Part shown: positions 19,036-57,872 of the stretch, one piece after another
Numbering within the stretch: the first letter of the stretch is position 1
Layout of the letters: each line of letters starts with the position of its first letter
Source: Blakeslea trispora
Lineage: Eukaryota; Mucoromycota; Mucoromycetes; Mucorales; Choanephoraceae
NCBI GenBank assembly: GCA_025331445.1
Contig: JAIWNE010000002.1
Span: 1 to 64,000 of the forward strand
Length of the DNA: 64,000 nt
Direction of reading: 5' to 3'
Notes under the pieces: model-generated
What the model was told of the DNA's origin: nothing
What the model saw: only the letters and a program-made list of their open reading frames with translations
The model's database searches: none
Made by a program: the position numbers and the translations under genes

Positions 19036-19551
19036 TTTTACTGTAGAAAGAATGGTAATTTTTGTCTATAAAGAGCTAAACACATTTAACAATGTAATAT
19101 AATGGTATTTAGTTCTTTTGCCTAAAACGATTCTCCCAAAATAGCCTGGCCCCCAACTTCCTAATTAGCATGCTTTTTGCATGAAGTACTCATTGTTTGT
19201 CCCCCATTTTAGCTCGCACTCATGCATGACTTTTTTTTTCTTTTGTTTTTTAATATTTCTGCTTAAAAGCAGCTTGTCTGATATTTTTTTTGGCACTTAA
19301 AATTTATTTTAAAGAAATTCAATGGATGAAAATAGCACGCACTTGGTCAACCTTTCCAATCTGCTTCAAACTTTTAACTAAACAACCTTGAACATGTAAG
19401 AGTACAATGAACTAAAAAAATCGAATCGTTTATTTACTAAATCCATCAAATCTGCTCTCCAAAACTTATCGTTTGGGCCAAACTACCACAAATTAAATTT
19501 TCTTGCGCTGTAGTGAACACCTTCAGCAAGTCCCAGCTCTTTCTCTCTTAG
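19036..19551. other. Unassigned spacer before the GCR1_C-like exon
   Basis: No gene is recognised. The last bases (a pyrimidine-rich run ending TTAG at about 19551) look like a splice acceptor for the following exon. Confidence 0.4.
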
Positions 19552-19837
19552 TGTCACTCTTCACTCTTTGGAAGAGTTGTATAGAGAGTGGACTGAAGGG
19601 CTAGGAGGCCTTCCATCGGTTGAGACTATGAATGTCGGCCAAAAGGGATGGTACACAAGAAATGGGCAGAAGACGTTGTACATGAGGAGAAACAGAATCA
19701 TGAAGACCATAAAGAATTATGCAGCTTCTAATGGTATAATCGTTGCAGATGCAGTCCGCATAGCTGAAAACAGAAGACAAGTAACCAAGAAGAGTTTGAG
19801 TCACTTGGACAAAAACTGCAATAATATTTTTGAATAG
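19552..19837 (+). CDS. GCR1_C-like DNA-binding exon, displaced C-terminus of the Crypton gene
   Basis: The frame reads LEELYREWTEGLGG near its start, followed by basic MRRNRIMKTIKNYA and a leucine-containing tail, ending at TAA 19835-19837. The LYREW..G..G pattern with later Arg/Lys helices is that of the GCR1_C family, a DNA-binding domain usually found at the C-terminus of fungal Crypton recombinases. No ATG precedes it; it starts after a likely acceptor near 19551. It lies on the same strand as the recombinase at 15079-16935, so I read it as the last exon of the same gene, separated by about 2.6 kb of repeats. Whether splicing can still join them is unknown. Confidence 0.6.
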
Positions 19838-25289: not shown

Positions 25290-26811
25290 TACTGGTTTTT
25301 AACTTAGAATTCCTGAATTGACCCAAATATTTCGTTTTTTAGCCAAATTGATTTTGGAGACTGCGCGCAATGATTTGGTTTTTTGACCAAATAGATTTCG
25401 GAAATGTGCACCATAAATTTTGTTTTTATGTACCGTTAATTTCGTTAAGGTAAATTATAGGTCTCTGATCAAAATAAAAATGCAAATAAAGAGAGACATA
25501 CGTTTTATGACCTTTGAAGTGTCTACACAAATTGAAATTATGATGTTGCTGCGTAAGGTGTTGCCGAAACACACTTAGTCAAATAAGCTTTTATTGGTTC
25601 CTGAATAGACGTATTACGGATCTCTTCATTATATATAAAGGAACACATTTAAGCGTCTTGATTTTGATCCGTTAAATACATTTTTGAAAAGATGAGCCAA
25701 GAAACTTATTACTCTGTTAACACTGTTGCACCCGTTGCTTTGACTTCTGAAAACCTTGAGTAGTACCTTGATGATTTCCATTTTTCTGAATTTGCTCCTC
25801 ACAACTTATAGCATCTCAAGTACCAGTAGCTCAACGTGTCACCAAGAGAGGTCCATACAAAAAATGACAGAAGAAATCTGGAAGTTGTTCGTTTCGCATT
25901 ATCTTGCAAGTGGAAAGAACGTCCCTTAAGCAGCTAAGGCCATTGGTTTCTCAACTTCTACCATGAGCGACTATATCAAGCGTTGCGAAGAAACTGATGA
26001 CTGGAGGATGCCAGCTTTAAAGTTTCGAGAAAGAATTGCACCTCCAACCATCAAAGAAAGACACAGCATCTTCATCGAAAGCCTTTTGGAAGACCGAGCA
26101 GAGATCACTCTTAGAGACATAAGTCTTCAACTTAAGGATGCATTTCCAGAGGATTTTCCCAGACCACTTAGCACCTCAGCAATTCCCAGATTCATGATCG
26201 ATAAGCTCGACTTCACTTTGAAAAAGGCCCAGATATACCCTTTTAGAAGAGGCTCCCAGGAGGTTCGAGACAAGCGACCTGAATACTGTACAAAGATCAA
26301 CGAAGAGCAACAAGTATGGTATTTGAAAAATTGCATTTTCGTCGATGAAACTGTGTTCAACTTGCATATCAACCGCACCCGAGCCAGAACAAAGCGTGGT
26401 GCTCCTGCATAAATAAAGGAGGACACTTCTTCCGAGGAACGAAACCTCACTGTCTTTGCCGTAATGAGCCACGTTGGTCTAGAGACCTCAGCTTGCCACT
26501 GTAATCGAGATACAACAAGCTCAGAGTAGTTCGAGGATTTCATCAACGTCTTAATCAAGCACATGAATCAACGAGGTATAAATGAGTATTATGTGATCTT
26601 AGACAATGCTCCTATACATAGCACAAGCACTATGAATAAGCTGACTGATGCAGAATACCATCCTCTAAAGCTTCCACCATAGTCTCCTTTCTTAAATTCT
26701 ATTGAACAACTCTTCTCCAAGCTGAAGCAAAATGTCAAGAAGCACCAATTGCGGCATCTTGATGAGCTGCTTCAGAGAGTTAGAGAATCTGCTTCTCTAA
26801 TTACTTCTGAT
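25290..26811 (+). mobile_element. Tc1-like element 2, left part (cut by a solo LTR)
   Basis: The left end is TA at 25290-25291 followed by CTGGTTTTTAACTTAGAATT. About 170 bp of this end match 35390-35525 in direct orientation, although terminal repeats should be inverted; the explanation is the inversion of 27222-35662. The element continues, on the opposite strand, from 35662 down to 35388. Rejoined, it would be about 1.8 kb with TA on both sides. Confidence 0.85.
25691..26811 (+). pseudogene. Tc1-type transposase 2, decayed and split by LTR insertion and inversion
   Basis: The likely start is ATG 25691. Early stops and a one-base slip in the A-run near 25860 break the N-terminal part; then a helix-turn-helix (YLASGKNVP, TAA, AAKAIGFSTSTM) leads into an open frame to TAA 26410-26412. 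Beyond it the same frame continues through TAG 26527 and TAG 26680. Catalytic residues are visible in IFVDETVFNLH, VILDNAPIH and LNSIEQLFSKLK. At 26811 a solo LTR interrupts codons reading SLITSD. The C-terminal codons (CKGWIRHSLTFYASCIREEE, then TAA) lie on the minus strand at 35662-35586. The protein would be a standard cut-and-paste transposase, now inactive. Confidence 0.85.
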
Positions 26812-27221
26812 TGTTATAGGCCAAGAAATCACAATGATAGAAATCAGAGAATTAATCAGACTAAAGATAATGTTTTATTTACTTCAAAATTGATGTGTTA
26901 TTTATACTTTTCATGAAGATGATATTTCAACTGAGATTGTAAAACTTTTCTAGAGGCTTGTAGATGATTATGATAATAACAACGAATCGGATGAGAGATG
27001 AATGATGACAATCTTGTAAAGAAGAATTACTAAAATAGAATGATTGGCCATCTGTACCTTAAACCCAGTAACTGGTAAATTATTGGCAAGATGTCAGTCC
27101 TGGCCTTGAATGAAGGTTTATCCGAATTGAATGTCAAATGAAACAAGCTGAAGTCGAATTAGAGAATGGTTGTGGATTCATAAGTGGCTAAATACTTGAT
27201 CCGTACAATATGAATACAACA
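26812..27221. mobile_element. Solo LTR, family gamma, left copy (410 bp)
   Basis: TGTTATAGGCC ... GAATACAACA, with TG..CA ends. The copy at 35663-36072 has the same length and is nearly identical but inverted. The flanks here are CTGAT on the left and CGCGT on the right; at the other copy they are ATCAG and ACGCG, the reverse complements in exchanged order. No internal retrotransposon sequence adjoins either copy. Confidence 0.9.
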
Positions 27222-27224
27222 CGC

Positions 27225-27365
27225 GTGAGGGGGAGGGACGACCCTCCCCTTAAACCCCCTCCCAGCTAGTTAAGGCTTAGTGTACTGATCCTAATTAGTG
27301 CTGGCTGTGCGCATAGGGGAGGGACAACCCTCCCCCAAACCCCCTCCCAGCTGGTTTATAGCTCA
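27225..27365 (-). repeat. Two G-rich hairpin units of the Helitron 5' region
   Basis: Each unit, read on the minus strand, has the plan CCAGCTGGGAGGGGGTT, then GGGGGAGGGT(C/T)GTCCCTCCCC, then CTCACGCG or a variant. The central part is a near-perfect palindrome with arms of about 10 G/C-rich bases. Further units are at about 36118-36170 and 50171-50223. Confidence 0.8.
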
Positions 27366-27415
27366 TAATTTGTTGCTGTTTGAAGCTCATTATCTATGTA
27401 AGTGAATTTTGTTCT

Positions 27416-27502
27416 AAGTGACTGTTTTTTACAATTCAATTTTAAGCGGGCGGTGACTGTTTTTTACAACTCGAATTTAAGCGGGTGGTGACTGTTTTTT
27501 AG
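27416..27502 (-). repeat. Tandem repeat with GTGACTGTTTTTTA core
   Basis: About three copies of a 35-44 bp unit, GTGACTGTTTTTTACAA plus ATTTTAAGCGGG(C/T)GG, in direct order. A related word occurs in reverse near 36205, also in the 5' region of Helitron 2. Confidence 0.65.
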
Positions 27503-27531
27503 GACACCTTATCTTTTTAATATATTACTGA

Positions 27532-29008
27532 TTGTGATGGATCTACTGAAAAGCAGTTCTTGAATTGTTGCTAGCATTGACCGAAAATGTTGATGATTGT
27601 TGATAATATACTCATTTCAATAAACATGTATAACAACCAATTGTCTTGATAAAAGAAAGGGAATGGATCACTCATATAGAGTCTACAATTGATTCTTCTG
27701 TTCTTCTTTTATGTCTTCTCAACTAGGCATTCAATATCACTATTAAGCCCGATATCAATTTCAAAGCATTTAAAGTTGTTTGTCTATACAGTTGATTTGC
27801 TTAGTCTCAAGTTTGGATTCCAATGTTTAAGACCAACAGTTCTTAAAAGAGATAATAAAACATTTCATCCTTATTAAGGGAGAGTTATTAGCAAAAGATA
27901 AAATAGCGATTTGGTAGGAAATGTAGTTGTCTCTCTCTTTTTATTATCTTTTTTCTTTTGACTACCTTTCAGTTTGCAAATTTGCCTTTCTTTGTTTTCA
28001 GACTTTTCTTGAGGCTATCACTCCTAGTCTCACACCTACATCTGACTTCTCCATCTTGTCTATGCTTAAGTTATACCCATGAATGGCAACTTTAATTAGT
28101 TCATCCTGTACAATTTCACTTTATACAGAGATGATAGCAGTTTTTTTATTTATTTAACTCTTAGAATCTCTGTTATTCATTTTACCAAATATTGTTTGCC
28201 TTATAGACACTTACAGCAATAACGGGTCCTTTTTTATGTGCTCATGTTGCTTCAGTGATGGTGATGAGAGATCTCAAGATCGACATTCAGTCATGAGGGT
28301 AACTTTCCTGGACTACTATCTTAAAAATTAAAAGTCTGAATAACAAACACCTTCTCTCAACCTTGTTGTTTTATTTTCTTGCCTCTTTTTACACTTCTTT
28401 AGCTTTCCACTCCTTGTTATGATTACACAAAAAATTAAAAATTGGCTCTTTAGCCTTTGGCTTTATGAATTTAATGGCTTATACTTCTTTTTCCTCTCTT
28501 TCAGCCTACTATCTTTATTTCGTCATTTATCTGAGTTTACTTTAGGATTACCTTCCAAATACCTCTTCTTTACCTTTAAATTAAATTTACATACATCTTT
28601 ATTTCTTACCCAGACTGTTTCACCTCACTTGCCCGATCCCCCCCGTTTACCATTTTTGTACATATTTTTTGCATGAAATCTGAAATCGATCCCCCCATTT
28701 GATTATCTCTTCATTTTCACTGCTATTTTTTTCCCTTTTCAGCCAAATCTCTTTCTCACAGATTATTTCTCTTAGTCTTTTTATTTATTTTATGGCCTTT
28801 GACATGTTAAAAAAACCGAGGTCAACTCATCTCTTCAAATCAGCTTCAAATTAAAAAACTAACCTCCCTCAAGTCTCTAGATTACATTTTAACAAAAAAA
28901 TCAATTACTTTAGTCATTTCAAATGCCAAAAGAACCATGTCTATAAAAGCTGAATATTGACCTCAATCAGAAAAAGCTCACTCCAATATTTTTAAAACTC
29001 CTATACGC
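27532..29008 (+). repeat. Repeat A, copy 2, inverted-segment part
   Basis: It aligns with 2448 to about 3880 of the longest copy. Its first base abuts the 5' end of Helitron 2. The rest of this repeat copy is 41991-43591, on the far side of the Helitron. The match stops at 29008, where the gag sequence begins. Confidence 0.85.
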
Positions 29009-30105
29009 CGTATTGCATGCTTCGAGCAGAAGAAGCGACGTCCAGAGCCAGAGGAGCTAGAGCGACCAGAGGAGCCAGAGCGACCAGAGGAGCGACCGCC
29101 ATCACCAGTCCGTCTTCTCTTGGAAGGGCCAGCTACAGAACCAGAACCAGAACCAGAACCACTTGCTTCCGAGGGCGCCCAACGGGACGACGAAGTACCA
29201 GCACCAAAAGCACCACCAGGCCGTCTGTCTCCAAAGACACTTTGGACAGCAGCAGCGATGTCTTGGAAAGACCAAGCAGTTTCACCATGGTGGATGGAGG
29301 CAAGAACAGTGTTGATCTGGACTTGCCAGCTCTCCGGGAACCCACACAAAAACACGTCGCCCAAGATGCTATCCATACGGTCATAGCCCGCATCAGCAAC
29401 CGCCCGACCAAAACGCAAACCATACTCGCTTACCGTTTCATTACCTCTTATGCGCATAGTCATAATGGCGCTACGGGACTCCAAACGGAGCAAAGAGCTC
29501 CCAAAAGTCTTGACAAAGGCGGCCTTGGCAGCCTCCCAAGAGCCACACAACAACAGATCGTTCCGCAACCAAGCGTCAAAGTCCTAAGACAAAGCCAAAG
29601 GGATATACTTTCTCCAGACCAGCTCCACATCATTGTCGGTGGAGTCCATAGCCTTTTCAAAAAATCCGCATGAGCCGTTCAACCGTGCTGAACGTCTTTT
29701 CACCAGGAAAGCGATTAGCACTCTGTGCCTTCAGCTGGAACTGGGAATATCTTTTTTTGTAAGCCAAACACCAGCACAACCTTCTTTATTTGCAGGGGTA
29801 GCACATGAACGCAACGCATCAACTCTCTTGTTGTTCAAATCAACTTCTCTTACCAGTGCATCCACATCATCACCGTCAGTTCCCTTGATTACCATGTTTG
29901 TGAGCAGATCCCTCTTGGCTAGTAATATTTCGATGGCAGTGCCCAGAGAGTCGGTGCGCTTGCCTGGATGATCATCGATCTCCATATGGTCAAGGCCCTC
30001 AGGACCAGCAGAGATTGGTGGCAATACGGTGGTAGAGGCTTCCGTATCTGACATGGTATCTTGATTGGCAGAGGTATTGGATGGGGATTGAGTAGGAATA
30101 GTCAT
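29008..30105 (-). pseudogene. gypsy-type gag, truncated, GC-rich
   Basis: ATG at 30105 opens MTIPTQSPSNTSANQDTMSD, with a SLGTAIEILLAKRDLL helical segment; after a one-base slip and a TAG near 29587 the frame DFDAWLRNDLLLCGSWEAAK follows, and then FVKTFG, MRIRGNETVSEYGLRF and LGDVFLCGFP, the retrotransposon gag core. It ends in Gly/Ser/Arg-rich low complexity (about 29030-29150) and stops at the junction with repeat A, so nucleocapsid and pol are missing. The 5' LTR (30128-30737) sits directly upstream on the same strand. GC content is much higher than anywhere else in the window. The gag of the large gypsy element (45067 onward) shares the N-terminal pattern. Confidence 0.8.
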
Positions 30106-30127
30106 AGTGATTTAAATCCAAAAAAAA

Positions 30128-30737
30128 TGTACTGTTTGGCAGCTAAAAAAAAACACAAGTAGATTTAAATGGGGTTTATTCCAATACAAAAGTAAAGTGA
30201 ATCTGATCTAATTTTATTCCTAAATTATCTCCTATTTATACTTTTCGAAAGCTAGAATGATTTATAATATCTAGATTATTGTTGATCGCATCTTAACATG
30301 ATTCCTTCGATGTCGATATCCAGAATCTATGATAGTTCAAAGTACGCATCTAAATTGTGGCGAGAACACTAACTTGGATAGCCTTGCAATGTTAGACTCA
30401 AAATTGGAAGCATAAAGAACAATTATTATTATATTGAAATAGAAGGATTTGATTGGCTGATTTAAGAATATAGGTATCTATAGTTATGTAGTTCACTACA
30501 CATTCATCTAATTAAGTCATATAAAGACAAGTAAATGATGATAGTGATGTAATCATATAGACTAAGTACACTAATTTAGTACAAGCTTTAAATGACTATG
30601 ACATGTATAAATAATAGTTGTAGTGATAACTTTTGAAACTCTTCTTCCAATCTTAACAAGAAATAAAACACTACAAACATTCTCAAAGTATTATCTTTAT
30701 TTTTTCTTTTATATCGCTACAACCCCCAAACACCACA
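30128..30737 (-). mobile_element. LTR, family alpha, 5' LTR of the truncated gag element
   Basis: The right edge ends CACCACA at 30737; 30480-30737 match, inverted, the solo LTR at 40181-40440. The inner edge is set at TG 30128 because a T-run and the gag ATG follow on the minus strand; that edge is uncertain. Right of 30737 repeat A resumes at once with GGAATC. Confidence 0.7.
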
Positions 30738-31446
30738 GGAATCAATAAGCTCATGACAAAGTACATGTGTAAAGGATCGCGTCTCATCTTTGGTTTTTTG
30801 TTTTTCTAGACTTTCTATGCTTTATGCTTTATTCCTTTATTGTTTCTGACTCTTGTGTATACTGTTAACAAGTGATCTCCCACTTGGTGTTGCTCACGAA
30901 CTTGCATGTTGCTTCAAGTTGGCTGTCAAGAAAAAAATAATTACGAAAAAAAATCACTCTCGGTTAAGGCTGTATTTTTTTCAAGCGCAGCTACTGCAAA
31001 GCGATTAATGTGCTTACTGAAGGCTGTAGTCATGAAAATTAACTCATTTCTGTATCCTATACTGCTTCTTATGATCCCAAAAGGTACCTTTATCAAAGCC
31101 AAGCATGCCAATCAATCTGAGTACACCCGATGCAGCATCCCTGTTACAAAAAAGGACATCTAAGCTACAAATCAGCCTAAAGAAGAACCCATATATAGCA
31201 TTTATTTGACTTAGATTAATAAAATTAAACAAGCTTGATTTGCCCATAATACCTATATAATCCAATCATATGCCAAGCTCATCCAAAAATTAAAGCGATA
31301 CAATTAGCCCATTTATTGCTTATACTTCTAAAACTTGTTAAATCATCATAACTATATACTCTAGAGGCCATTTGTCACTATACCTCCCCTCTGAGACCTA
31401 AGCTAGATATGATTCGACTATAAAGCACTCCTATTCAAAGTAAGCT
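30738..31446 (+). repeat. Repeat A, copy 2, right part
   Basis: It aligns with about 5395-6082 of the longest copy. The part corresponding to about 3880-5390 is missing and its place is taken by the gag and LTR segment. Confidence 0.8.
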
Positions 31447-31559
31447 CGTATAATACTTTACCCATGGCCCAATTCTTGTGTTTCTGCATCGGTTCTCACT
31501 GTGTTTCTGCCCATTTTCCTTTGAAACCGCATATGAAAAAAACAAATATTTCGCAAGGT

Positions 31560-32480
31560 TATTTCACAATTTTTTGAGTCACTATATACACCCTCTACGC
31601 CGTGGTGGTGGACTTCCGCACATATGGTAAAACAGCTCAAGGAGGATGCCATAGGGCTTTTCGAAAGTTTGCATCCTGATTGTACTGCTGTCTTCCTATT
31701 TGACAACAGTTCCAATCATGGTGCATTTGCTGATGATGCTTTGGTTGCGTCTAGAATGACACGTAATGAAAAAGAATGGAGTGACAAGCTAAAGTATCAG
31801 TTCAAAGATACTTTAGTTACTTTGGCTAACGGCGATACGCTGATTCAGTCATTTTACTGTGACAAAGAGATCCACACGTTGGATAAGAAGAATCGACCAG
31901 TCGTATTAAAGAAAAGATTCCTCAAAGGTAATTGCTTTAGGCATTTTACGCACTCAGTCTGACTTGTTAAATCATAGGAATAAAAAAAATCTTGGAAGAA
32001 AGAAGCCAGTGGTTTGGGCGTGATTTGCAAGGCAAAGCCTGGAAGCTGGATTGTGGCAAGCCAGCTTGTGCTCAATCTATGTGTTGTGCAAGGCACTATC
32101 TTGAAAGTTGCCCAGACTTCAAGGCTCAAAAAACCGCACTGCAAGAAACTGTCGAAGATGCTGGTCACATCTTTGAGCTTCATCCAAAGTATCATTGCGA
32201 ATGTAACTGGATAGAGTACTATTGGTCATATGCCAAGCGAGAAGCCCGTTTGAAGTGTGATTACACCTTCAAATTGCTTGAAGCCAATGTGTCGACCTTT
32301 CTGGATACCGCTGGCAATACAGCTCATATTAGAAAGTATTTCCAGAATTGTATGGATTACATTGAAGCATACAGTGAGTGTAGTGATGGCCGAAAGATTT
32401 CTCTAGAATTAGAGAAATTTGTTTACAAAAGATACCTATCACATAGAAAAGTGAAAGTGGACAATGAAATCACCCAATAA
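31560..32480 (+). pseudogene. DDE transposase, 3' half, with one intron
   Basis: Frame from about 31600 (WWTSAHMVKQLKED) through VFLFDNSSNHGAF to a 50-bp intron (31928-31977, GTAATT..CATAG), then IKKILEERSQW to TAA 32478-32480. The second part has CGKPACAQSMCCARHYLESC and HPKYHCECNWIEYYWSYAKR. FDNSSNH supplies the second Asp and NWIEYYW the Glu of a DDE triad. This arrangement, with a Cys-rich insert before HCE..IE, is that of a transposase group common in fungal genomes and distantly related to Tc1/mariner. The first Asp and the N-terminus are absent, so the copy is 5' truncated. No terminal repeats are found. Confidence 0.75.
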
Positions 32481-32577
32481 AAACACAAATTTTGGAAATT
32501 ACTATCGGATTTTTAATAATAGAGCGGGAGTTTAAATGATAGAAAATTTGAAAAGAAATTAAAGTTTATAAGATTTA

Positions 32578-32735
32578 AGACTGGAGGCACTGTACTGCTT
32601 CTTATCATCCCAAAAGGTATTAAAATCAAAGCCAACCATGCCAATCTATCTGGATACACCCGATGCCACATTCCTGTTACAAAAAAGGACATCATAGCTA
32701 GAAGTCAGTCTAAAGAGGAACCCATATATAGCATA
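32578..32735 (+). repeat. Repeat A fragment
   Basis: About 150 bp match 5695-5850 of the longest copy, including CTGTTACAAAAAAGGACATC and the following AACCCATATATAGCAT. Confidence 0.75.
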
Positions 32736-32965
32736 AATGTTATAGAACGGTCCTAATCTTTTGATTGTCTTAAATTCAAATATCCCTTCAACCTCCACAA
32801 GAGGTGTTCACCGGATGTATTACGAATCTTCTAATTAGAAGTCCTCAACTATTATCCCTGTAGCAGTTAAACGAATATTATAAATCCTTCTTCTCTCTCT
32901 GGAGTTTTAATAAAGCTACTAACAATCTCAAAAAGTAGTTAATAGTCTTTATAACAAATTTTGAA
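32736..32965. other. Unassigned spacer
   Basis: No gene or repeat is recognised. Confidence 0.4.
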
Positions 32966-33077
32966 TACTTCTGGAAACATAATGGACACCTTCATTATAA
33001 ATCTGATAGAGATAATTGCTGTTATTTAAATTTCCTCTTAAATGAGATTAGTTATTTAAAGTTTGGGACACCTACTA
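32966..33077 (-). repeat. Short repeat C, copy 2 (inverse orientation)
   Basis: It matches 21478-21594 in reverse. A mariner element begins immediately after it, at a TA. Confidence 0.65.
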
Positions 33078-33301
33078 GAGATATATGTCGAAAGTTTTAC
33101 CCCGCTCCGTTTTTAATTTATTGCGCTGTAATCATCAGCTTTTTGCAAAGGTAGTACCATTCGATCAGAAAAAAGTTGCGATTTTTTTTTGGGATAGATC
33201 TTGCTTCTTTCTGATCATTATAATTTGAGGAAGCTTAAAAAGTAGATTTCATCGATTTTGATAAAAAAAACCACTTTAAAACTCAGAAAGAAGTATGTTT
33301 T

Positions 33302-34525
33302 TTAATCATCTTTATCTTCAACTGATTCTAAAACTGCACAACTACCATCAAACTCCTTCGAATACTGTCTTGCTATGTTCGTTGTAGCCTTCCAAACCGA
33401 TATCAACGATTCTTCGTCGATGTTTCTGAGGGAAGTCTCATTCAGGTCAGGGTCATAGGCAATTAGGTTTTTTACCATTGACCATACCTTTTCAATTGAT
33501 TGAAGCTCACAGTGGTAGGGAGACGTGATCAGGATTCTGTGGTTGTACTTGGCTGCAATCTCGTACGTTGTGTATAGAGACTTTATATACAACTCCTTTA
33601 CCATCTTGAGGAGCTCTTTTGTTTTTTTTGGGTGTTGCATCTTGCTCTTGCAAGTGGCCGTTATCGATGATCCATTCCCCGTTTTCCTTTCTTTTTGATC
33701 CAGTTTTTGGAAAGGGGTTGTTTGTACGCTTATGGTAAGATGCACCATCCATATGGATGATGCAACTACCATAAGGAACCAAGGATTGACAAAGTCTTTC
33801 GAAGATGTCTTCAAAAATTTCCGAAGTAAAGTTTCCATGGTAATCTAAGTTCAGCTTTTTGCCATTCTTTGCTGGCCACACCTGAATACTGTCTTCAATC
33901 ATGTTTGCACGTAGCTTCCTTTCTGATTTAAAAACTACGAAAGCAGCAAACATGACTATCATCGGTTTTCTGTCCCTCTCATTGACCACGCCTCTTGCTG
34001 GTGCCCAAGTCTTTGTCGCATGGTGATCCAAGTGGCAGTATAATTCATCAAGAAATACTTCAGGTTGGACTAGCTGCATATTGCCATTTTGGTTCTTCAA
34101 TCGTTCATTTGAATACCTATATCTGTATTTAATGTTGGCAGGGCTGTCATGAAGAATGTTCCTCCTTTCACCCTTTTTGTAAGTTAATTTCAAAGCGTGT
34201 AAGTTCTTCAAGAGAACATCATAGCTCACTACAATGTTTTTCTGCTCTTCGAGTGCTGCTGTAGGACTTTTGACTGTAGATACTCGTCCTTCCTTGTTGT
34301 TTTTGTCAATTATTTTCTTTACGGCAAAAATATATTCCGGCTCCAATTGACGAGGAGGACGACCCATACGTTTTTTTTCGGAAGGTTCCAAACACTCACG
34401 ATATATACTAATCGCTTTCTGAGCAGCTTAGCCAGTAATGTTAAGGAGCTTAGTTAGAGCTTGGCGGAGCTTAAGCTTCGCGATCTTGTGTTGATTGAGT
34501 TTCTTATTAAGGATGACATCGACCA
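33302..34525 (-). pseudogene. mariner-like transposase 1, frameshifted
   Basis: From about 34525 downward the frame gives a Lys/Leu-rich N-terminal helix-turn-helix, a TAA at 34429-34431, then GRPPRQLEPEY and the core. Catalytic residues appear in VFLDELYCHLD, CIIHMDGASYHKR and ELQSIEKVW. A run of eight A near 33622-33629 has one base too many, moving the C-terminal part (MVKELYIKSLYTTYEIAAKY to ESVEDKDD) into another frame ending at 33302. The paralogue at 58334-59620 has the same plan. At the codon where this copy has CAA in RLCQSL, the paralogue has TAA. The upstream part continues past the LTR at 34526. Confidence 0.85.
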
Positions 34526-34952
34526 TGTTATATTCCAAGAATATAACAGGCACAAAATATAACAAAAGGTGAAGACAAATAAAGTCGATTAGAAACAGAA
34601 TGGCAAAAAAAGATAGATATGAATCTGATCCGCGTTTATTTCAAATATGTGCCTAGTATTTATACTTTTTACGATGACTGAGTAACAATCCTTAATTTAA
34701 CTGAGTGACATGGATAATAGCTTATTTTTGGTGTAATGGATAAAGAGTGAGTACCTCTTGTGTATAAACCATAATCCACTATTTGTGCTTCAATCCAAGT
34801 GTACTTGATACAAATGAAGTGTGATCCGATCTTTTATTTTAGACTGAGTTTAGATGACAATTAAGCTATAGCCAGTTATAACTGTAGAGCCGTGAGCACG
34901 TTTAGGTCTGTATTATAACTCAGATAGGGTAGAATGTAGGCTGTATACAACA
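34526..34952. mobile_element. Solo LTR, family beta (427 bp), in mariner 1
   Basis: TGTTATATTCC ... GTATACAACA, flanked by GACCA and GTCCA, a 5-bp target duplication with one mismatch. A second copy of the family is at 44141-44993, about 425 bp after removal of its own insert. Confidence 0.9.
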
Positions 34953-35010
34953 GTCCATTCGACTCAAAAGGGTAAAAGTTTCAGTTGTAAATTTTTTAAT
35001 GTCAGGAATG

Positions 35011-35387
35011 TCTTCTTTAGCGTAAAGTTCACTACAATCAATTGAATTTTTCTGCCGTCTTATCCACATTTTTTTATGTGAGTGAGACGGTGGTGAGACT
35101 GATAATTTTTTACTGCTTAGTTTAATTATCTTATTTTCTTTACGAAATTGCGCTCATTGTGGATAAAACTTTCTAGGATGACTCTTGAATCAATGTACTT
35201 TATATTTGTAAAATTGGACGTTGTGATTCCTTACAAAATCTTTCATAACTTGACGATTTTGTATTTACAACCTTTTTCAACCATTTTATTACAAATTCGA
35301 TTTTCGCCATTTTTTTCGAAATGACTTGCATTTATTTTTCTGAGTTGAATAGGCTGTAAATTGAGTGAGATTGCTTTCCAGGTTACG
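35011..35387. other. Unassigned AT-rich spacer
   Basis: No gene is recognised. It may include the decayed right end of mariner 1; GTGAGACGGTGGTGAGAC near 35087 resembles an inverted repeat at 9195-9218. Confidence 0.4.
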
Positions 35388-35662
35388 TACTGGTTTTTAA
35401 CTTAGAATTCGACAATTGGCCCAAAAAATTCGTTTTTTGGCCAAATCGATTTCGGATATGTGCACCATAAATTACGTTTTTAGGTACTGATGATTTTGTT
35501 AAGGTATGTTATAGTCTTTCAATAAATAAAATCAAGACAGTAGTCAAATGCAACAAAAGCAACTTCTTTTTATAATTGAATTTATTTACAGCATCTCTTC
35601 TTCACGGATACAGCTGGCATAAAAAGTTAGGGAATGTCTAATCCATCCTTTACAGTCATCAG
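35388..35662 (-). mobile_element. Tc1-like element 2, right end with the transposase C-terminus
   Basis: On the minus strand, 35662-35586 encode CKGWIRHSLTFYASCIREEE and a final TAA, exactly the continuation of the frame interrupted at 26811. The terminal repeat follows, ending at TA 35388-35389. It is displaced 8.4 kb from the left part by the inversion. Confidence 0.85.
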
Positions 35663-36072
35663 TGTTGTATTCATACAGTACGGATCAAGTATTTAGCCAC
35701 TCATGAATCCACAACCATTCTCTAATTCGACTTCAGCTTGTTTCATTTGACATTCAATTCGGATAAACCTTCATTCAAGGTCAGGACTGACATCTTGCCA
35801 ATAATTTACCAGTTACTGGGTTTAAGGTACAGATGGCCAATCATTCTATTTTAGTAATTCTTCTTTACAAGATTGTCATCATTCATCTCTCATCCGATTC
35901 GTTGTTATTATCATAATCATCTACAAGCCTCTAGAAAAGTTTTACAATCTCAGTTGAAATATCATCTTCATGAAAAGTATAAATAGCACATCAATTTTGA
36001 AGTAAATAAAACATTATCTTTAGTCTGATTAATTCTCTGATTTCTATCATTGCGATTTCTTGGCCTATAACA
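35663..36072. mobile_element. Solo LTR, family gamma, right copy (410 bp)
   Basis: TGTTGTATTCATA ... GCCTATAACA, inverted relative to 26812-27221 and of equal length. Flanks ATCAG (left) and ACGCG (right) do not match each other, but each matches a flank of the other copy. Confidence 0.9.
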
Positions 36073-36117
36073 ACGCGAAGCCATTATAGTCAGGAACGGT
36101 AGAATGAGCCTAGACCA

Positions 36118-36170
36118 GCTGGGAAGGGGTTCAAGGGGGAGGGTCGTCCCTCCCCCTCACGCGAAGCCAT
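36118..36170 (+). repeat. Third G-rich hairpin unit of Helitron 2
   Basis: CCAGCTGGGAAGGGGTTC, then GGGGGAGGGTCGTCCCTCCC, then CTCACGCG. It has the same orientation relative to the gene as the copy in Helitron 3. Confidence 0.8.
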
Positions 36171-36374
36171 CACTATTCATTCGTTAAAATACAGTTTGTA
36201 AAGAACAGTCACTAACTTTTAAATCATTTAAAATTGATGCGTGTTCTACTGCTGTTCTAAAATTACTTTTTTCTTCTTTTTATCTCCAATTAGTAAGTAA
36301 CTTGGCTTTGGACTTTTAGTTTCCTATACTGTTATTTGACTATTGAAACTTTGACAGATACATATAACAAAAAT

Positions 36375-39300
36375 ATGAATGATCCATCAACTATTTTCTG
36401 TGCAGCATGCAACGAGCCGGGACACTCTCGCAGAACATACCGATTTTGTCGAATGAACCCTCGCAATCAAGTAGATGAAGATGTGCAGATGGAAGAAGTT
36501 CAACAGAATCAACGTCAAGACAATATAGCTGTATGTTCAGCTTGCAATGAACCTGGACACTCACGCCGAACTTTTGCTGGGTGCAGAATGAACCCACGTT
36601 TTCAGAATATGGAAGTAGATGGGCAACTCCCTGCTGTCGAAGTTTGCGTCAGCTGCGGAAGGGAAGAACATTCTAGAAGTACCAGTAGACTTTGCCCTTT
36701 GAACACTCAAAACACTTTGAATATCGCAAGAGACTTGAGTGCTGTACCTTCTATGAGATTTGATTGTGGTTCAATGAGTTGTGTTTGCAATCATTGTGGT
36801 GCCTTGATGTGGATAAAGGAAAGAGCTTCTGGTAGTAGTATGACTCATCCTGTATTTTAGTTGTGTTGTTGTAAGGGCGAGTCAATCTTAAATTCTTTGC
36901 AACCAACACCGTTAGAAATTGCAAATCTTCTTAAGGGAAATGATGATACTTCCAAAGAGTTTCGAAGTAATATTAGAATGTACAACAGCTCTTTAAGCTT
37001 CACTTCATTTGGTGTAAACCTTGATTTGAACTTAGCTAATAGTCGAAATGGCTCCTACACTTTTCGAATTCAGGGCAGTCCATATCATTTGATTGGATCT
37101 GCTATTCCCTCAAGAAATGCGAGTCCTAAGTTTGCACAGATCTATATTTTTGATACTGAGCATGAATTGGAAAATCGATATGCAATTGCACAAAATGTAG
37201 ACCGTTCAACTTTGTTAGCAATTCAAAATATGATGCATCGAGTTAACCCCTTCATTGCTATCTTCAAAAACATGACGCAAATCACTGCTGAACAACAGGG
37301 TAACAGTAGTAATGTTGGTCAAAATGAAGGCATATCATCTATGGAAAATGTGAAGTTAGTCTTTAGAGCTGAAGGTGTGCCAGATCGTAGACGCTATAAT
37401 AGACCTACGAACGGATCTCACATCGCAGCTATAATTGTTGGTGGTGATAATGACGATAATGCTGCAAACACCTCTCGAGATATTGTCATTCAATACCAAG
37501 ACAGTTCTATTGTAAGAGTCAATGAGTCAAACCAATTCTATGGCCCATTACATTACGTTCTTTTGTTTCCCTTTGGAGAACCTGGTTGGAGCATCACCAG
37601 TTTAAGCACTTCGTCCAATGAAAAAATGACAATCATGCAGTTCTATAGCTTTAGGCTCATGTACAGACCATCTGATGACCATTTGTTACATCTTTTTGGC
37701 AATCTACATCATCAGTACATTGTCGATATGTATACTAAGATGGAGCAAAACAGACTCTTATACATTCGTTATAATCAAAACAGTTTAAAGTGTGAACTGT
37801 ATCAGGGTCTGCAAGATGCTGTAAATTTAAGTGATGGTTTGGAACCAGTCAATCAAGAAGAAAGAGAACGGTTAGGCAAAAAGGTAATCTTACCATCCAG
37901 TTTCATCGGCGGGCCTCGACACATGGCGCAATTGTATCAAGATGCATTGAGTATTGTCAGACGTTTCGGAAAGCCTGATTACTTTATCACCTTTACCTGC
38001 AATCCTCAATGGCCTGAAATCCAACGAGAACTTTTGTTTGGTCAGAAAGCATCAGATCGACCCGATCTTTGTAGCCGAGTTTTCAACATTAAGCTTCGTG
38101 AATTACTTGATGATTTGACCAAAAAGAATATTTTGGGGAAAGCTGTTGGGTTTGTCTACACTATTGAATTTCAGAAACGTGGACTTCCTCATGCTCACAT
38201 TTTGTTGATCGTTGATTCCTCAGATAAGCCTTTAGCTGTGGAGGAGTATGATAATATTGTATCAGCTGAGATACCAGATCCAGTTCGTTTCCCTTTGGCC
38301 CACCAAACAGTGATAAAACATATGATTCATGGACCATGTGGCTTAATTAACTCGCAAGCTGTTTGTATGGACAATGCGCATGGGTGTACTAAAAATTATC
38401 CCAAAGCCTTTTCCAATGAGACAACTGCTAATATCAACGGTGGCTATCCTGTGTATAGAAGAAAAAACAATGGAGTCACAGTCGCAAAGACTATAAACAG
38501 ACATACGTACAATATTGACAATCGTTGGGTTGTACCCCACAATCTCTACCTTGCTACGAAATATGATGCTCATATAAACGTCGAAATATGTTCATCAATT
38601 AACAGCATTAAATATGTCTACAAGTATGTCTACAAAGGTCATGATCGAGCCTCATTGTCTGTTGAGCAAAATGATGAAGTCCGCTCCTTTATCGATGCCC
38701 GATATGTCTCTGCCCCCGAAGCTTGCTGGAGATTATTCTCTTTCCCTATGCACAAGGAGTTTCCCGCACACCAACGACTGGCAATTCATCTCGAGGGCGA
38801 GCAGTCTGTGTATTTCAGCGAGAATGAAAACATCAATGCTGTATTGATGCAAGCTGCTGAACAAGACACAACGTTGACCAGTTGGTTCAAAACAAACCAA
38901 AACGATCCTGATGCAAGATCGATTTTGTACCCTAACTTTCCTGAGCAGTATGTCTGGCACACATCTGTAAAGCCAAGAAAATGGGCAAAAAGACAACGTG
39001 GTTTCGGTGCAACTATTGGCAGAGTTTATTCTGTATCTCCCAAAAGATCAGAATTATATCATCTTCGCATGCTGTTATACCATGTTTCTGGAGCAACCTC
39101 TTTTGCTCACTTGAGAACAATTGATGGCATATGCCATCCTACTTTTCAAGCTGCTGCTAGAGCGTTAGGCTTACTTGCATCGGATAACCAATGGAAGCAA
39201 TGTCTAGATGAAGCTGCTCATACACAAACGCCTGTTTCTCTTCGCAAGCTTTTTTGCATTATCCTGGTGTTCTGTTATCTTGCTGATCCATATCAGCTAT

Positions 39301-41534
39301 GGTTGGATTTCATAGATAAGCTTTTAGAAGACTATGTTCTTCAGCTACACAATGATTCTTCATTTGATTCAGTATTGAACAATGTCAACGATGAAGCCTT
39401 TGATCGTGCACTTTTAGATATTGAGAGTATCTTAACAAGTCACCATGGCTCAAGTCTACGATCATATGGGCAATTCAAATTACTTGTGTCTAACTCTGGG
39501 CAAACTAATCCTAACAGTTTGATCCAAGAACAGCTTCAATTGAATGCTATTGCAAGACAGACGACTTATCTTAAAGATGTTGCAAATTTTAATTCTGATC
39601 AACTTGAAGTTTACGAATCTATCATGCAATGTGTTGAAAGAGATGGATGTAATTCAACTGAGTTTCCCAAACTTTTTTTTGTTGATGGGCCTGGAGGTAC
39701 GGGTAAAACCTATCTTTTCAACACCCTCTTAAAAGCTGTACGATCTGGTCATGATGGTTTTGCTTTAGCTGTTGCTTCCAGTGGCACAGCTGCATTATTG
39801 ATGGCAGGTGGCAGGACAGCTCATTCCATGTTCAAAATACCTCTGGAGGCTTCCTCCACTACAATGTGTAAAATCACACCATCATCTAAGCAAGCTCAAT
39901 TATTAAGAAAGACGAAGCTGATCATTTGGGATGAGTCTTCAATGATTAATAAGTCTACTCTTGAGACAATGGATCGTACATTCAAAGATATTTTTGGTGC
40001 TCAAAATGATGCGCTAGAATCAGTACCATTTGGTGGCAGATTAATGGTTTTTGGTGGCGACTTTCGTCAAGTACTTCCTGTCATTTCTAAAGGCAGTAGA
40101 TCAGATGTTGTCAATGCATGCATAAACCGATCTTTTCTTTGGCCTTCCTTTGCTGTAAAGAAACTTCAATTAACATGCGTTGTGGTGTTTTAGGGTTGTA
40201 GTGATATAAACGTGTTAAAGAAGAATAGAGTGAGACAAAGAAAGTACTTTGAGAATGTTTGTAGTGTTTTATTTCTTGTTAAGATTGGAAGAAGAGTTTC
40301 ATAAGTTATCACTACAACTACTATTTATACATGTCACAGTTATTTACAGCTTGTACTAAATTAGTGTACTTAGTCTATATGATTACATCACTCTCATCAT
40401 TTACTTGTCTTTATATGACTTAATTAGATGAATGATGTTATGGAGTGATTGAGTCGGATTCTGTATATTGAGAACCTTATTGACTTTACTTCAGATGCTT
40501 TATTTAGTAAGGATTTACAGGGATTGATTTCATTATGTCTGATGTTATTATCCTTATGACTTATTTGGTTTACATGTTACCTTATTGTCATTGTTGAGAC
40601 TTAAATGTGCTCAGATCACCACATGCGTGTTCAGCAAGCTCAAAATAGCAATAATCCTTCTTTGTCCCATGAACTTGAACAATTTGCTAACATGCTTTTG
40701 GATATTGGTAATGGCTCAGCAGAAACTCTTCGAGTTCAAGTTTATCCAAGCTTTATTGCCACTGACACTGACTTTGTCAAGCTGCATGATTCAATGCTTA
40801 TAGCTGGAGATGATCTTTTGAATCTTCTCTCTGCTATTTATCCGGAGCTGTTCAATCCAAACATGAGGATTGAAAGCAGTGCATCCTACTTGATCAACTC
40901 TGCTATTCTGACGCCAATTAATGTGCATGTTGCAGAGATCAATCATTTGCTGATTGAAAAGCTTCCAAGTGAGCCTGTCATCTACTACAGTGCTGATGAG
41001 ACTTTGGATCAACAACAATCGTTGCAGTATCCTATGGAAGTTCTCAATGCAATCGAATCGGGCTCTTTACCTCCCCATGTGCTTACATTGAAAGTCGGAG
41101 CACCGATTATGCTTTTAAGGAATCTTGATGCACTAAATGGTTTATGCAATGGTACAAGACTCATTGTCAAGTCTTTAATGCAAAACTTGATTGAAGCAAC
41201 CATTGAAACAGGTACATTTGCTGTATCTATTGTATGCATTCCAAAGATAAAGCTCTTTTCTGCTGCATCTGATGCCATGCAGTTTCAACGGGTTCAATTT
41301 CCTGTAAGACTTGCTTTTGCTATGACAATCAACAAAGCTCAAGGACAAACGCTTGATCGAGCTGGATTGTATCTACCAAAACCAGTCTTCAGCCATGGGC
41401 AGTTATATGTTGCTCTATCACGAGTCAGACAAAAGGAATCTATCAAAATTCTCATTGGCAAATCAAACTCCATTCCAGCCCAATATGCAAAAAATCATAA
41501 AAGAAATGTTGTATACAAAGAAGTGTTCATATAA
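36375..41534 (+). pseudogene. Helitron 2 Rep-helicase with three N-terminal zinc knuckles; stop, LTR insertion, frame offset
   Basis: ATG at 36375. The first 110 residues hold three CxxC-x3/4-H-x7-C modules (CAACNEPGHSRRTYRFC and two relatives). A TAG at 36858-36860 falls where Helitrons 1 and 3 have Trp (FWxSCC). Then the Rep domain with RGLPHAHIL and KYVYKYVYKG, and the PIF1-like helicase with GPGGTGKT, LIIWDES and GGDFRQVLP. A solo LTR (40181-40623) splits the helicase; the frame NMRVQQ to VVYKEVFI resumes after it, including TINKAQGQT and YVALSRVR, and ends TAA 41532-41534. Removing the LTR and one target copy leaves the halves one base out of frame, so a small indel is also present. It lacks the N-terminal intron of Helitrons 1 and 3. 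Confidence 0.88.
40181..40623 (+). mobile_element. Solo LTR, family alpha (443 bp), in the Helitron 2 helicase
   Basis: TGTGGTGTTTTAGGG ... GATCACCACA, bracketed by the 5-bp target duplication TGCGT at 40176-40180 and 40624-40628. Other copies are 44211-44633 (inverse) and the LTR at 30128-30737. Confidence 0.95.
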
Positions 41535-41639
41535 AAATTTTACTTCCTCTGCACTTATTTTAATTATCACTATCATCATTGTTATTCTTACAGTCCTTAT
41601 CTTTCTTATACATATCAATAAAATTGCTTTTTAGAAATC

Positions 41640-41990
41640 CCTCAGATCTGATCCTAATCGAACCTATCTCATTTAGCTATAAACCAAATACTCGGATAAA
41701 CTTGAGTCTTTCTCACTGCCCCGGGACACATGTTTTTTTTTACCAGAGCGACGGTTTAAAATACACAAAGCGCAGCGAAGGGGTTATTTTATACAATAGC
41801 GAAGGTTCAAAAAAAATATGGGTGGGGCCCCCACATTGATCTTCTCATCGAATTAGTTGGCCTGCGGCAGCACGAGCATCTTACAAAGCGTAGCGTACCG
41901 TACCATAGTGAAGGTCAAGAAAATTAACCAGAGCGCAGCGGAGGTGCTAATTTTATTACCGCAATGGAGGTGCGGTTTGTAATATGCTCG
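41640..41990 (+). repeat. GC-rich 3' region of Helitron 2
   Basis: Contains GCGCAGCGAAGG, AGCGTAGCGTACC and GCGCAGCGGAGGTGC words; 41855-41990 match 9824-9960 of Helitron 1 in the same orientation relative to the gene. The shared block ends exactly at the proposed 3' termini, so it probably belongs to the replication termination region. Confidence 0.7.
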
Positions 41991-43591
41991 TATGTCTTTA
42001 TTTTCCAAAGGAGAAAAAATAGTCCAACTAGCTATAATGCAATCCACCTCATAGATGTTTACCTCTCAAAAACCATGACACCGTTTAAAGAACCCTTGAT
42101 CATCCAAAGTGCTTTTGATATGTAACCTGAATTAATTTTTTCACCGGAAATGATGTTGACAATGATGGCATCTTCCTTTGACTAAAACCGCTAATTTTAC
42201 TAATAACTTTACCTCTTAATTCCATTTTGTCATTTATAGGATTGATCTCTAGTAAATCAGATGTAAATTTGGCTAGAAGTTGTTATTTAGAGAGTGAAAG
42301 TATTGTCTTCAATAAGCTGAAGTGATAAAAGACTGTTATCACAAGCTGAAGGTGTAATCCGTAGGTCTAGGTTGATTCAATCAGAAACGATAATGACTCC
42401 ATACTATCTTCAAGGGTTATATGTGTGTCAGGTAATCAATTGTAGAAATGGAACAATATCTTACTCTGCTTCAAAAATCTATTGGACTTCATCATAAAAC
42501 AAACATTTAACAGTGAGACTAATACATTATCTATTTTCATAATATGTTAGATTATAAAGCCATATATAATGCCATCGAGTTGCTTACCTTTGCTTTATAT
42601 TAAGCGGGATTAAAAGGTATCTTATGTTAGAGTTATCATCTCCACCACTGATAATTTAGAAAATATTGTAATTATTAATCTTTTTCAAGTGATTTAGTGG
42701 TGGCGTGTTTAAATACTGCAATTGTCTGCTTTGTGATGGTAAGATGAGTGACTATATGATGAAGACTTGAGCTGCCCAAATTGATCGTGAACAAACCTAA
42801 AAATTAAGCCTCTTTCTAGACAGATAAAAGAATGGATAAGTTAGCGATTATGTAGCATGACCTGAATGATACACCTTAACTCGGAAAGGAAATACTCTCA
42901 AGATTCAGGAAAAATAAAGGGTGTAGCAATCAATAGAGTGAAGGAAAAAAAAAGGAGAGGAAAAAAGCCGAGAAAAAAAAAGAGATAAAAAAGGAAAGAG
43001 AGTAATGTCACCCCTATAAATAACATGGAACTTTGGGGGTCAACTTACTTTTAAAGTATGTCAGCTATTCTAATGTAGGTAAAGAGAGAATAAACCTGAA
43101 ACCTTCTTAGAAATCGGCCAATCAGAGTAGCGACTTTCCATCACTATGAAAAAGGTAAATGTTTATGATTTGGTTTATTTCCTCTCTTTGAATCATACGC
43201 TTCAACCAGGAATAAAATATTGTCTATGATAGTAATAAATCCAATTATTTAATTAAAAAGAATGAGATGTAGTCAAAAAGATAATTACACTTTAACAGTA
43301 GAAAGTAAGACACAATCCTAAAATTTCAATAAAAATATTGTTTTCATGAAGCATTGATTTCATGTGCTCTGACTTGCTTTTACATATTAAGAACTGACTA
43401 GAATAGTTATAGCCAGTAAGAAATATATAACCTTTTAGTTAAAAAAGTTAACTTTTATGAGCACATGTTAGCTTTCTCGCTGCTCATCAGTTCTGCATGT
43501 CGACATCTCAAAATTACATGAGCATGCAAGATGCTAGTTGATCTCGGAAAAGGTTGAAAAAAATAAAATAAAATAAATAAAAAGCACCTAC
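41991..43591 (-). repeat. Repeat A, copy 2, outer part
   Basis: It matches 2447 down to 898 of the longest copy. The first base follows the 3' end of Helitron 2 and the last base precedes the 5' LTR of the gypsy element. Confidence 0.9.
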
Positions 43592-44140
43592 TGTTGTGAA
43601 CATTTAGAATCTATGTACTGATTACGAAATAAATGATACAAAGTATCATTATACAGGCTATATCTGGACATAAAGTCTAGAATAAAATTAGAGTAACTGT
43701 TATAGATCAATGTCTACTTCATCTATCTATCCTTTAGAGATCGATTCTAATATGTTGCTAACTTGAGAGACAAATTGAATCATATATCAAATAGACCAAT
43801 TGGCTCTTGGGACTCAGGCCTTATCAATGTGGATAAACTATTGATATCAGCTATACCGAATCAGAATTGATGTGACAATGAAAATGACAAGATGGTGCTA
43901 AAGAATTTATTAAAACAATTTTTTTCTATCTTACCATCTCAGATCAGCTATGACCTGAGAGCTGAATAGACTAATTATCTGAGACATGGTCAATGATATA
44001 GAGTTCCGTATCCTCGATATTAAAATAGATTTTCTGATCATCTCTAGATGATAGAATCAGTTTATCCGAAAAGATATAAATACCTAGATAATACATAGCT
44101 ATAAACGACATCTTATCTTTCTCTAATAAACCATACGAGT

Positions 44141-45537: not shown

Positions 45538-48500
45538 TTAGATCAGGAGTTCTGGATAGATTATATTATCGATGAGATTTTGTTGGTTAGAAGGATCAGA
45601 TTTATGCAAGACATGTATGCCTTGTAAGTTGGTGGAGCGAGAGAAAGCAACATATAGTTGGCCATGTATGAATGGTGAGGTACGGAGGTCAATCCCAACG
45701 TTAGAAAGTGATTGACCTTGCGACTTGTTGATAGTCATAGCAAAACTTAGTTTGACAGGAAATTGTTTTCTTGACAATATGAAGGGATACTCATCTTCTA
45801 AGGTTGCTAGTTCTATTCGAGGAATGAGTTCAATTTATTTTTGGTTGGATCGACTGTTGTTAAGGACAATGACTTTCAATATGTATTGACCAATTTCTTT
45901 GACTACCAATCTGCTACCATTGTAAAGACCTTTTCGAGGGTTGAGGTTTCTTAAGAGCATCACAATACAGCCTACTTTCAAGGTCAACTTTGCAGGAGGA
46001 AAGTTGCCTGGGTTCAGCGTTTGAAGATACTCGTTAGTTACTCGATAAACCTCGTTGCTGGCATTTTCTTCTTGAGAATAGTCGGCTTTATCTGCCGAAG
46101 CCAAAGTGACGGATTCACCAGGCATCAATTCGAGTACCTTTTCATTCAGCAAACCGACAGTATCATTTTTGAAGGTGAGTATAGCCGATTGGTACAATGA
46201 CGAAGGGTTATGAATGATTCGATCAAGAGATTGTTGAGGATACACTCTAGAAATCAGCTCGTCCAGCGAGTGAGTCTGAGAGATGTATTGGGGAAGAGGT
46301 ATCTTTGCATTTTGAATAATAGAATTATAGGTTATAAGATAGAGCCATTTTTTGAAGTGGACATCATTTGGAGTACTGCCTCTTACTCGCATATTCTGCT
46401 TCAAACGAAGTACTTGAGTTTTTCGCCAAATGTGTGAATGCTTAATTGAGGCTTCAACAATGTTAGCACGACTACCATTTCTGATTACTGGAGGTATTTG
46501 TGCAAAATCACCACCCAAAACAACTGGAAGGCCACCAAAAAGTGCATTATTGCTTCGAATATCTTTGAGCGTGCGATCAACAGCTTCAAAGCAGCCTTTA
46601 TTCCGCATAGGCACTTCATCGCAAATTAGCAAAGAAGTCTCACAAAGCAGCTTAGCCAGTTTACTGTTTTTAGGAATGTAGCAGGAGGAAGTTTCATTGA
46701 TCTTGATAGGTAATTTGAGCCTGAAATGAGATGTTCTACCACCAGACAAAAGCAAAGAAGCAATACCAGAAGACGCAACACACAATACAATTTTTCTTTG
46801 ACTTCTGAGGTAGCTGCTCAAAGTGTTGTAGACAAATGTCTTTCCTGTACCAGCTGGGCCGTGCAAAAAGAAGCATGTATCAATTTCTGCAGGGTCTGAA
46901 CTTGTATCAACTGCTGAATCAAGAGACTGCAATCGACTAACTATGGTATCAAAAGCTTGTTTTTGATCTGAATTGAACATGGCATAGTTTGAGCTATATG
47001 TAGCATTTTCTTCTTCGGAGTTGTAAGCTAGTTGCTCGCTTATCAATTCGTTATCATTGCGCTGTTCATTGCTATTACTGTTGATGGCAGAGATCCAATT
47101 GTGCTTGCATGATGGCAGGTTGAACTCATCAAGAGATTTACTCAGCCCATTCAATTTTAACTCAATCAGATGTAGTCCATAGTCGAGAGAGGGCAGTCTT
47201 TCATAAAAAGGATCATAGTCTATCGATCTGTACATCTGGTTGTCAGGGAATAGCTGCTGCAATCTGTGCTCAAGATCATCACAGATTGGATGGCAAAATT
47301 TGGTCCACAACAAAAGAGGATCTGCTAACTGACCGAAAGTCAATGCAATAACAAATAAGTTACGCAAATGAGCACCAGAAGCAAACAAACTTGCTTCTTC
47401 AAAGCATTTTGACAATTCTTGATCATCCTCAATCAAATGCAATTGGAGGCAGGCTTCTTTGAAAGTTGTGCAATGGACTCCATTAATTGTTTTAAGATCA
47501 TCAAAGGATTTTGATTCTGCAACATTTGTCAAAAGAAGTCTCAAAAAATATCTTTCTCCACATGTAGGACTACAATATGGAATTCTACCAATTGCAAAGC
47601 CTTTCTTACTTAGTGCCCAGCTCTTTGTGTCTTGCTTCCAAACATGATGTTTAGGAAAATCCTGATATAGATACTTTTCGCTATCTGGGTTACTTTGATA
47701 ATACTTGAAATAAGCAATGAGCATTGAGCTGCTCTTAGCTAAGATTTCTTGTATTTGAGGTGGAGATGCATCCTCAGGAAAGTATACAGGTTGTTCATTA
47801 GGTAAATGAAGGGCCAACGTTGTGACAGTGGGATCTTCTTCATGTACTTTGTATTCAAAAATACGACCAAATGCTTCTGTAGGGCCAATATACCTTCCCT
47901 GAAGATGTTTTTCAATTTCATCTTTTGTGTCACTTATTTTCAAAGTGGTGTGATCAGAGCCTTTGTATACATATTTGTTAATGTATTTGATGGCTGCAAC
48001 ACCTTGACAGCATTCAACGTTTATGTGAGCCTTGTACTTCTTTGAGAGGTAGGGATTATAAGGCACAATCCAGCTATTGTCAATACTTAAACGACTACTG
48101 CTATATCTCATAGGATCGGGTATCGTGTATGAAGATCGGACAGTTGCTGATCGCTTGTATGTGGGGTATCCGTTTTCATTCAAAACAGTTTTTTCAGAAA
48201 AAGCTTCAGGAAATCGCTTGGTGCATTTGAGACGACCATTGCTATCCTTAGCCATACAAGGAGACTTTGGATTAAGATCACCGTAAGGTCCATGTACCAT
48301 GTTTCTTGTGATGATTTCAAAAAGCTCAGGGTCAGATTCTTTGCATGGCAATTCAGCTGAGATGATTTGATCAATCTTTTCCACAGTGTCTATGTTTTGT
48401 GAGTGATCCAAAAACAAAAGCAGATGCAAATGAGGAAGTCCTCGTTTTTGATATTCAATAGTTCGAACTAAGCCTTTGTAAGGTCCGAATATTTGCTTGA

Positions 48501-57654: not shown

Positions 57655-57872
57655 TTTGTAATTGATAAGAGAAGAAAACAAAAGAAAAAAACTCCTTACA
57701 GCACATAACATAAAAATACTAGACTCTGATTAAAGAATGTTGCATACCATATGTCACAAGTCAATAATAGAGTTCAGCAAAAGTAAATTACTTTTATGCG
57801 CATGAATCAAAATGTTCACTTTTAAGAGCCGATTACAACTATCAAAGATAGATTGACTCTGGTGGAGGGTAA
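57655..57872 (+). other. Leader between pol and the 3' LTR with polypurine tract
   Basis: Non-coding; ends GGTGGAGGGTAA immediately before the LTR, a likely polypurine tract for plus-strand priming. Confidence 0.6.

Follow-up and report, generated by a model that had tools for sequence, protein, structure and literature searches.

Exchanged target duplications at two solo LTRs and a probable 8.4-kb inversion in Blakeslea trispora

In a 64,000-nucleotide stretch of the Blakeslea trispora genome (hereafter the window; assembly GCA_025331445.1, contig JAIWNE010000002.1, positions 1 to 64,000 of the forward strand), ectopic homologous recombination between two inverted LTRs very probably turned an 8,441-bp segment around. 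This reading draws together the exchanged target duplications of the two LTRs, the base-exact continuity that two unrelated transposons regain when the segment is turned back, and the observation that no match crosses the joins in their present order by more than one chance base.

Exchanged target duplications at two inverted LTRs

The segment lies between two LTRs of 410 bp on opposite strands, which differ from each other by 6 mismatches. The features that bear on the exchange are as follows.

26812..27221, minus strand: left solo LTR, assigned to a Ty3/Gypsy chromodomain family, 410 bp; strand taken from the direction of gag-pol in a full-length relative
35663..36072, plus strand: right solo LTR, inverted relative to the left one, 410 bp
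26807..26811, plus strand: CTGAT, outer copy of the left target duplication
35658..35662, minus strand: CTGAT (ATCAG on the plus strand), exchanged second copy of the left target duplication
36073..36077, plus strand: ACGCG, outer copy of the right target duplication
27222..27226, minus strand: ACGCG (CGCGT on the plus strand), exchanged second copy of the right target duplication
27222..35662, no strand assigned: inverted segment, 8,441 bp

On the plus strand the left LTR is flanked by CTGAT and CGCGT and the right LTR by ATCAG and ACGCG. Both are without a 5-bp target duplication of their own, and each carries one repeat from the other site. An earlier note on this DNA, made by reading the letters, had given the coordinates, lengths, opposite orientation and flanks just as we find them, and had proposed that reverse-complementing 27222-35662 in silico would give both LTRs perfect 5-bp duplications. 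This is what happens: the flanks become CTGAT/CTGAT and ACGCG/ACGCG, agreeing at 5 of 5 bases at both ends. Among duplication lengths of 1 to 11 tried on the restored segment, only 5 matches fully at both ends.

The strand assigned to the LTRs in that note (the TGTTATAGG reading) needs correction, as it is opposite to the gag-pol frame of the full-length relative. The direction of this frame, which is that of transcription, places the left copy on the minus strand and the right copy on the plus strand. Being symmetric, the inversion argument is unaffected by the change.

Of the six differences between the LTRs, four fall on the left copy, where one is shared with two other copies, and two fall on the right copy, where one is shared with one other copy. 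No difference is thus found in more than two of the family's 69 other copies. The six are private, or nearly so, to one window copy and provide no parental markers that would place the crossover point or reveal chimeric LTRs.

Tc1-type transposon at the left join

The left LTR element had a DNA transposon as its host, which is present in the window in two parts.

25290..26811, plus strand: first part of a Tc1-type (DDE_3) transposon, host of the left LTR element; 90.6-91.9% to 12 fetched copies
35388..35662, minus strand: rest of this transposon, now displaced and in reverse orientation; 91.1-92.3% to the same 12 copies

A 214-base query across the restored left join is covered whole or nearly so by 19 of 28 rows from the same genome, at 85-94%. 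The 28 include both halves from the window itself, which leaves 26 other rows. In all 12 copies fetched from the 19, the two window halves are contiguous and overlap by exactly 5 bp, an overlap that corresponds to the target duplication. The restored join lies at the end of the transposase gene, which is split in the window, and the transposase reading frame continues through it, with an in-frame stop upstream of the join.

In the fetched copies the element is about 1.84 kb long with inverted ends, and a 339-aa frame of one of them (L019) matches DDE_3 at 3e-24 (Pfam). TA stands at both exact ends in 9 of the 12 copies, as well as in the window's restored element; each of the remaining three has one exact end missing. 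The DDE_3 transposase, inverted ends and TA target together identify the element, as judged by its sequence, as Tc1-type. The expectation of the earlier note that this element (its Tc1 element 2) becomes whole once the segment is turned back agrees with its contiguity in the other copies in the genome.

Helitron at the right join

The host of the right LTR element is a Helitron, and its parts are likewise separated.

36073..41990, plus strand: main part of the Helitron, host of the right LTR element, with Helitron_like_N, PIF1 and Pif1_2B domains
27222..27531, minus strand: 5' end of this Helitron, now displaced and in reverse orientation; 97.1% to C29:80779-81089, where it is contiguous with the main part

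We observe a relative on another contig (C29) that is contiguous where the window's Helitron is split, matching 27223-27532 (reversed) at 97.1% and 36073-40180 at 97.7%, with the five duplicated positions present once and one base different. It is the only other Helitron copy that covers the whole right join (best 40 of 127 candidates): a 217-base query across the restored join finds a whole-length match at C29:81009-81226, at 94%, in one of 55 rows (best 40 of 127 candidates). In 40 of the 55 rows the match extends 30 bases or more past the restored join in both directions (best 40 of 127 candidates); these rows weigh less because many sit within a short dispersed G-rich repeat. The same earlier note had a second element, its Helitron 2, made whole by turning the segment back, and the C29 copy, in which both halves are contiguous, bears this out.

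With the LTRs taken out, neither join in its present order is crossed by more than one base, in 46 rows for the left join and 63 for the right (best 40 of 144 candidates in each case); 23 rows at the left join and 21 at the right extend over it by one single base. Within each split transposon, both halves are also about equally diverged from the other copies (90.6-91.9 and 91.1-92.3% for the Tc1-type element, 97.1 and 97.7% for the Helitron), which fits one split element at each join.

Pfam places Helitron_like_N and PIF1 in 36861-40190 and Pif1_2B in 40605-41531. The limits of the Helitron, set by similarity to the C29 copy as the one comparison, fall between A and TC at 27531 (reversed) and between CTCG and T at 41990. 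Helitrons usually end in CTRR after a hairpin at their 3' end. At the 3' end placed here from two copies only (41940-41990), the final four bases are CTCG in both, and a short palindrome can be seen by eye. About 440 bp of the window's Helitron (40181-40620) are absent from the C29 relative; within the same region, 40237-40434 is 96% alike, in inverted orientation, to 30501-30698.

Members of the LTR families

A full-length relative of the window LTRs on contig C54 has one long gag-pol frame, pieces of which match Retrotrans_gag, RVT_1, rve and Chromo (Pfam), and carries the same LTR at both ends of this gag/RT/integrase/chromodomain element. On this sequence comparison, we assign the LTRs to a Ty3/Gypsy chromodomain retrotransposon. 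The family has TG...CA ends and 5-bp duplications; it was gathered by its end motifs, so copies with other ends are missed. The initial search scored the best 40 of 91 candidates. Of 80 places fetched, 11 scoring 600 or less were dropped, and the 69 scoring above 600 make up 71 rows with the two window copies.

Exact 5-bp duplications flank solo LTRs in 37 of the 71 rows, while 34 rows have unequal flanks. Twelve of these 34 are the ends of six whole elements, whose outer flanks match exactly and whose LTRs are more than 5 kb apart. A two-way exchange occurs in the window pair alone, out of the 71 rows and their 34 with unequal flanks. Three other pairs of inverted neighbors less than 60 kb apart (11.0 kb on C43; 13.3 and 39.9 kb on C79) retain their own duplications. 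For a second LTR family, 81 places were considered, and the 40 with scores below 600 were left out; 25 of the 40, with scores of 350-470, probably represent a related LTR type. Exact duplications are present in 18 of the 41 usable rows of this second family, and no exchanged pair was found among the 41.

One whole element of the first family, at C36:13516-13926 and 19382-19792 (L036 and L037), has unequal outer flanks (GCTTT and GCAAG), and this element is possibly another product of recombination between elements. Identical 12-base flanks occur on two contigs each for L049/L052 (C122 and C127) and L074/L101 (C43 and C139). These insertions would represent either segmental duplications or haplotypes that the assembly contains twice.

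Proposed course of events and alternatives

The arrangement would be accounted for if two copies of one Ty3/Gypsy chromodomain retrotransposon had inserted in opposite orientation about 8.4 kb apart, one into the Tc1-type transposon with duplication of CTGAT and the other into the Helitron with duplication of ACGCG, each of them surviving today as a solo LTR. The inverted LTRs would then have undergone homologous recombination that reversed the 8,441-bp segment, split both host transposons and left each LTR flanked by a duplication copy of its own site and one of the other. We take the exchange of duplications and the restored continuity of both split transposons as demonstrated by the alignments above. 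The earlier note had described the outcome of one crossover between LTRs that were already solo; its inversion between the LTRs is upheld by the swapped duplications and the restored joins, whereas the single reciprocal crossover, as the precise pathway, and the formation of solo LTRs before the inversion are our inference.

Several other histories would give a similar picture. The recombination may have taken place when at least one of the elements was still full length, with shrinkage to solo LTRs afterwards, a sequence of events that we hold possible, if doubtful. The flanks would look alike, and full-length copies are present in the same genome, yet this order needs later LTR-LTR deletions, and the excess of solo LTRs with exact duplications (37) over whole elements (6) in the 71 rows suggests that solo LTRs were probably abundant by then. 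The same product could come from template switching at a stalled fork, or from a different replication-linked exchange between the inverted LTRs, in place of a reciprocal crossover, and inverted repeats in budding yeast are described as recombining near a replication barrier (PMC8748988). The two junctions are base-clean; their sequence fits both pathways and does not call for template switching, which we regard as rather unlikely. The two LTRs might also be unrelated, their own duplications lost and their flanks alike by accident. Thirteen other rows classed as solo are likewise without exact duplications, so the loss of a duplication alone is nothing special. However, both 5-mers would match by chance in a given pair with a probability of 2.4e-6 (from the window's 5-mer frequencies), an exchanged pair of this kind arose between any two rows in 22 of 20,000 simulated sets of 34 rows, and contiguous copies were found through both restored joins, which leaves chance a negligible explanation.

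A flip by the assembler at the two LTRs, with the real genome in the restored orientation, would produce identical exchanged flanks. There is a precedent in the account of a re-assembled maize centromere, where elements with mismatched duplications and solo LTRs in the earlier reference turned out to be assembly faults (PMC4806543). Such a fault is very unlikely here: the same assembly has the 37 solo LTRs and six whole elements with exact duplications, the inverted neighbors on C43 and C79 are unexchanged, the repeat is merely 410 bp long and contains six differences, contig C112 measures 874,853 bp, and the window is free of N. Ordinary decay of the duplications was considered and rejected. 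Aberrant transposition, the other route named in PMC2775673, was set aside, as it would be expected to leave no clean two-way swap of both duplications.

The segment could be a live flip-flop, with both orientations present in the population or even in one culture and the LTRs still recombining. We consider this improbable; were it true, the locus would offer a natural way to measure how often inversion between 410-bp repeats takes place in Blakeslea trispora.

Comparison with known systems

Both the process and its signature have been published for other transposable elements (PMC2775673 and PMC3355041). For Galileo in Drosophila buzzatii, exchanged target duplications at inversion breakpoints are presented as proof of ectopic recombination (Delprat et al. 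2009, PMC2775673). As described there, two oppositely oriented copies stand at the breakpoints with exchanged target duplications, and each uninverted site has a single copy of the target, as is the case here. However, Galileo is a DNA transposon with 7-bp duplications, whereas we find Ty3/Gypsy solo LTRs with 5-bp duplications; chimeric copies were shown for Galileo, whereas the LTR differences here are without parental markers; and the uninverted chromosome was sequenced in that system, whereas other copies of the split transposons stand in for it here (PMC2775673).

The 9-bp duplications of BuT5 at inversion 2s of D. mojavensis, in an exchanged, reverse-complement arrangement, are likewise given as proof of ectopic recombination (PMC3355041), and the same kind of evidence is used here. 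That case concerns remnants of a DNA transposon and a chromosomal inversion fixed in the species, in contrast to a segment of 8.4 kb. Within fungi, LTR retrotransposons act as substrates of rearrangement in the Ty-mediated events of Saccharomyces cerevisiae (PMC3102749), where the account is of introduced Ty1 and gross rearrangements scored in the laboratory, whereas the one described here is small, natural and read from sequence. For crapaud in Podospora, 7 of 150 full copies are reported to have unlike LTR ends, with gene conversion or ectopic recombination invoked (PMC10787394). A literature search, not an exhaustive one, found no fungal LTR case with exchanged duplications.

The Blakeslea case is an unusually clean example of a well-known process, and it differs from the published cases in having solo LTRs, in spanning 8.4 kb and in relying on other copies as a stand-in for an uninverted chromosome. 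It suggests that LTRs of 410 bp are long enough to invert a chromosome segment in Blakeslea trispora. It also illustrates how exchanged duplications, together with unbroken copies of both split transposons, can provide base-level proof from one assembly. Applied to all repeat families of a genome, the same test would count such events without a second genome; its yield here is one exchanged pair in 71 rows of the first family and none in 41 of the second.

The inverted segment and its surroundings

The 8.4-kb segment is set in a stretch rich in mobile elements. It contains five frames of 150 aa or more, all scanned with Pfam, and no host gene was recognized among them. One frame has a Retrotrans_gag match just under the Pfam cut-off, and another has relatives with DDE-transposase domains, yet no Pfam family of its own; the three other frames have no Pfam family. 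The protein search behind the DDE-like relatives returned 56 matches, the named ones including Rhizopus, Rhizophagus, Glomus and Mortierella-type fungi, as well as the oomycetes Aphanomyces and Phytophthora. No near-identical duplicate of the junctions, nor of two stretches taken from the segment, turned up among the matches in the same genome.

Also within the inverted segment, a 427-bp solo LTR of the second family lies at 34526-34952, with the flanks GACCA and GTCCA alike at 4 of 5 positions. Further along the window, direct repeats of 258 bp at 43589-43846 and 57870-58127 are 98% alike and may be the LTRs of another element. The stretch enclosed by them has a Helitron frame (45835-49797), followed by frames for reverse transcriptase and integrase (54667-55365 and 55825-57654). 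Finally, a 9-bp tandem repeat, TCTTCTTTT, occupies 62474-62728 in about 28 copies.
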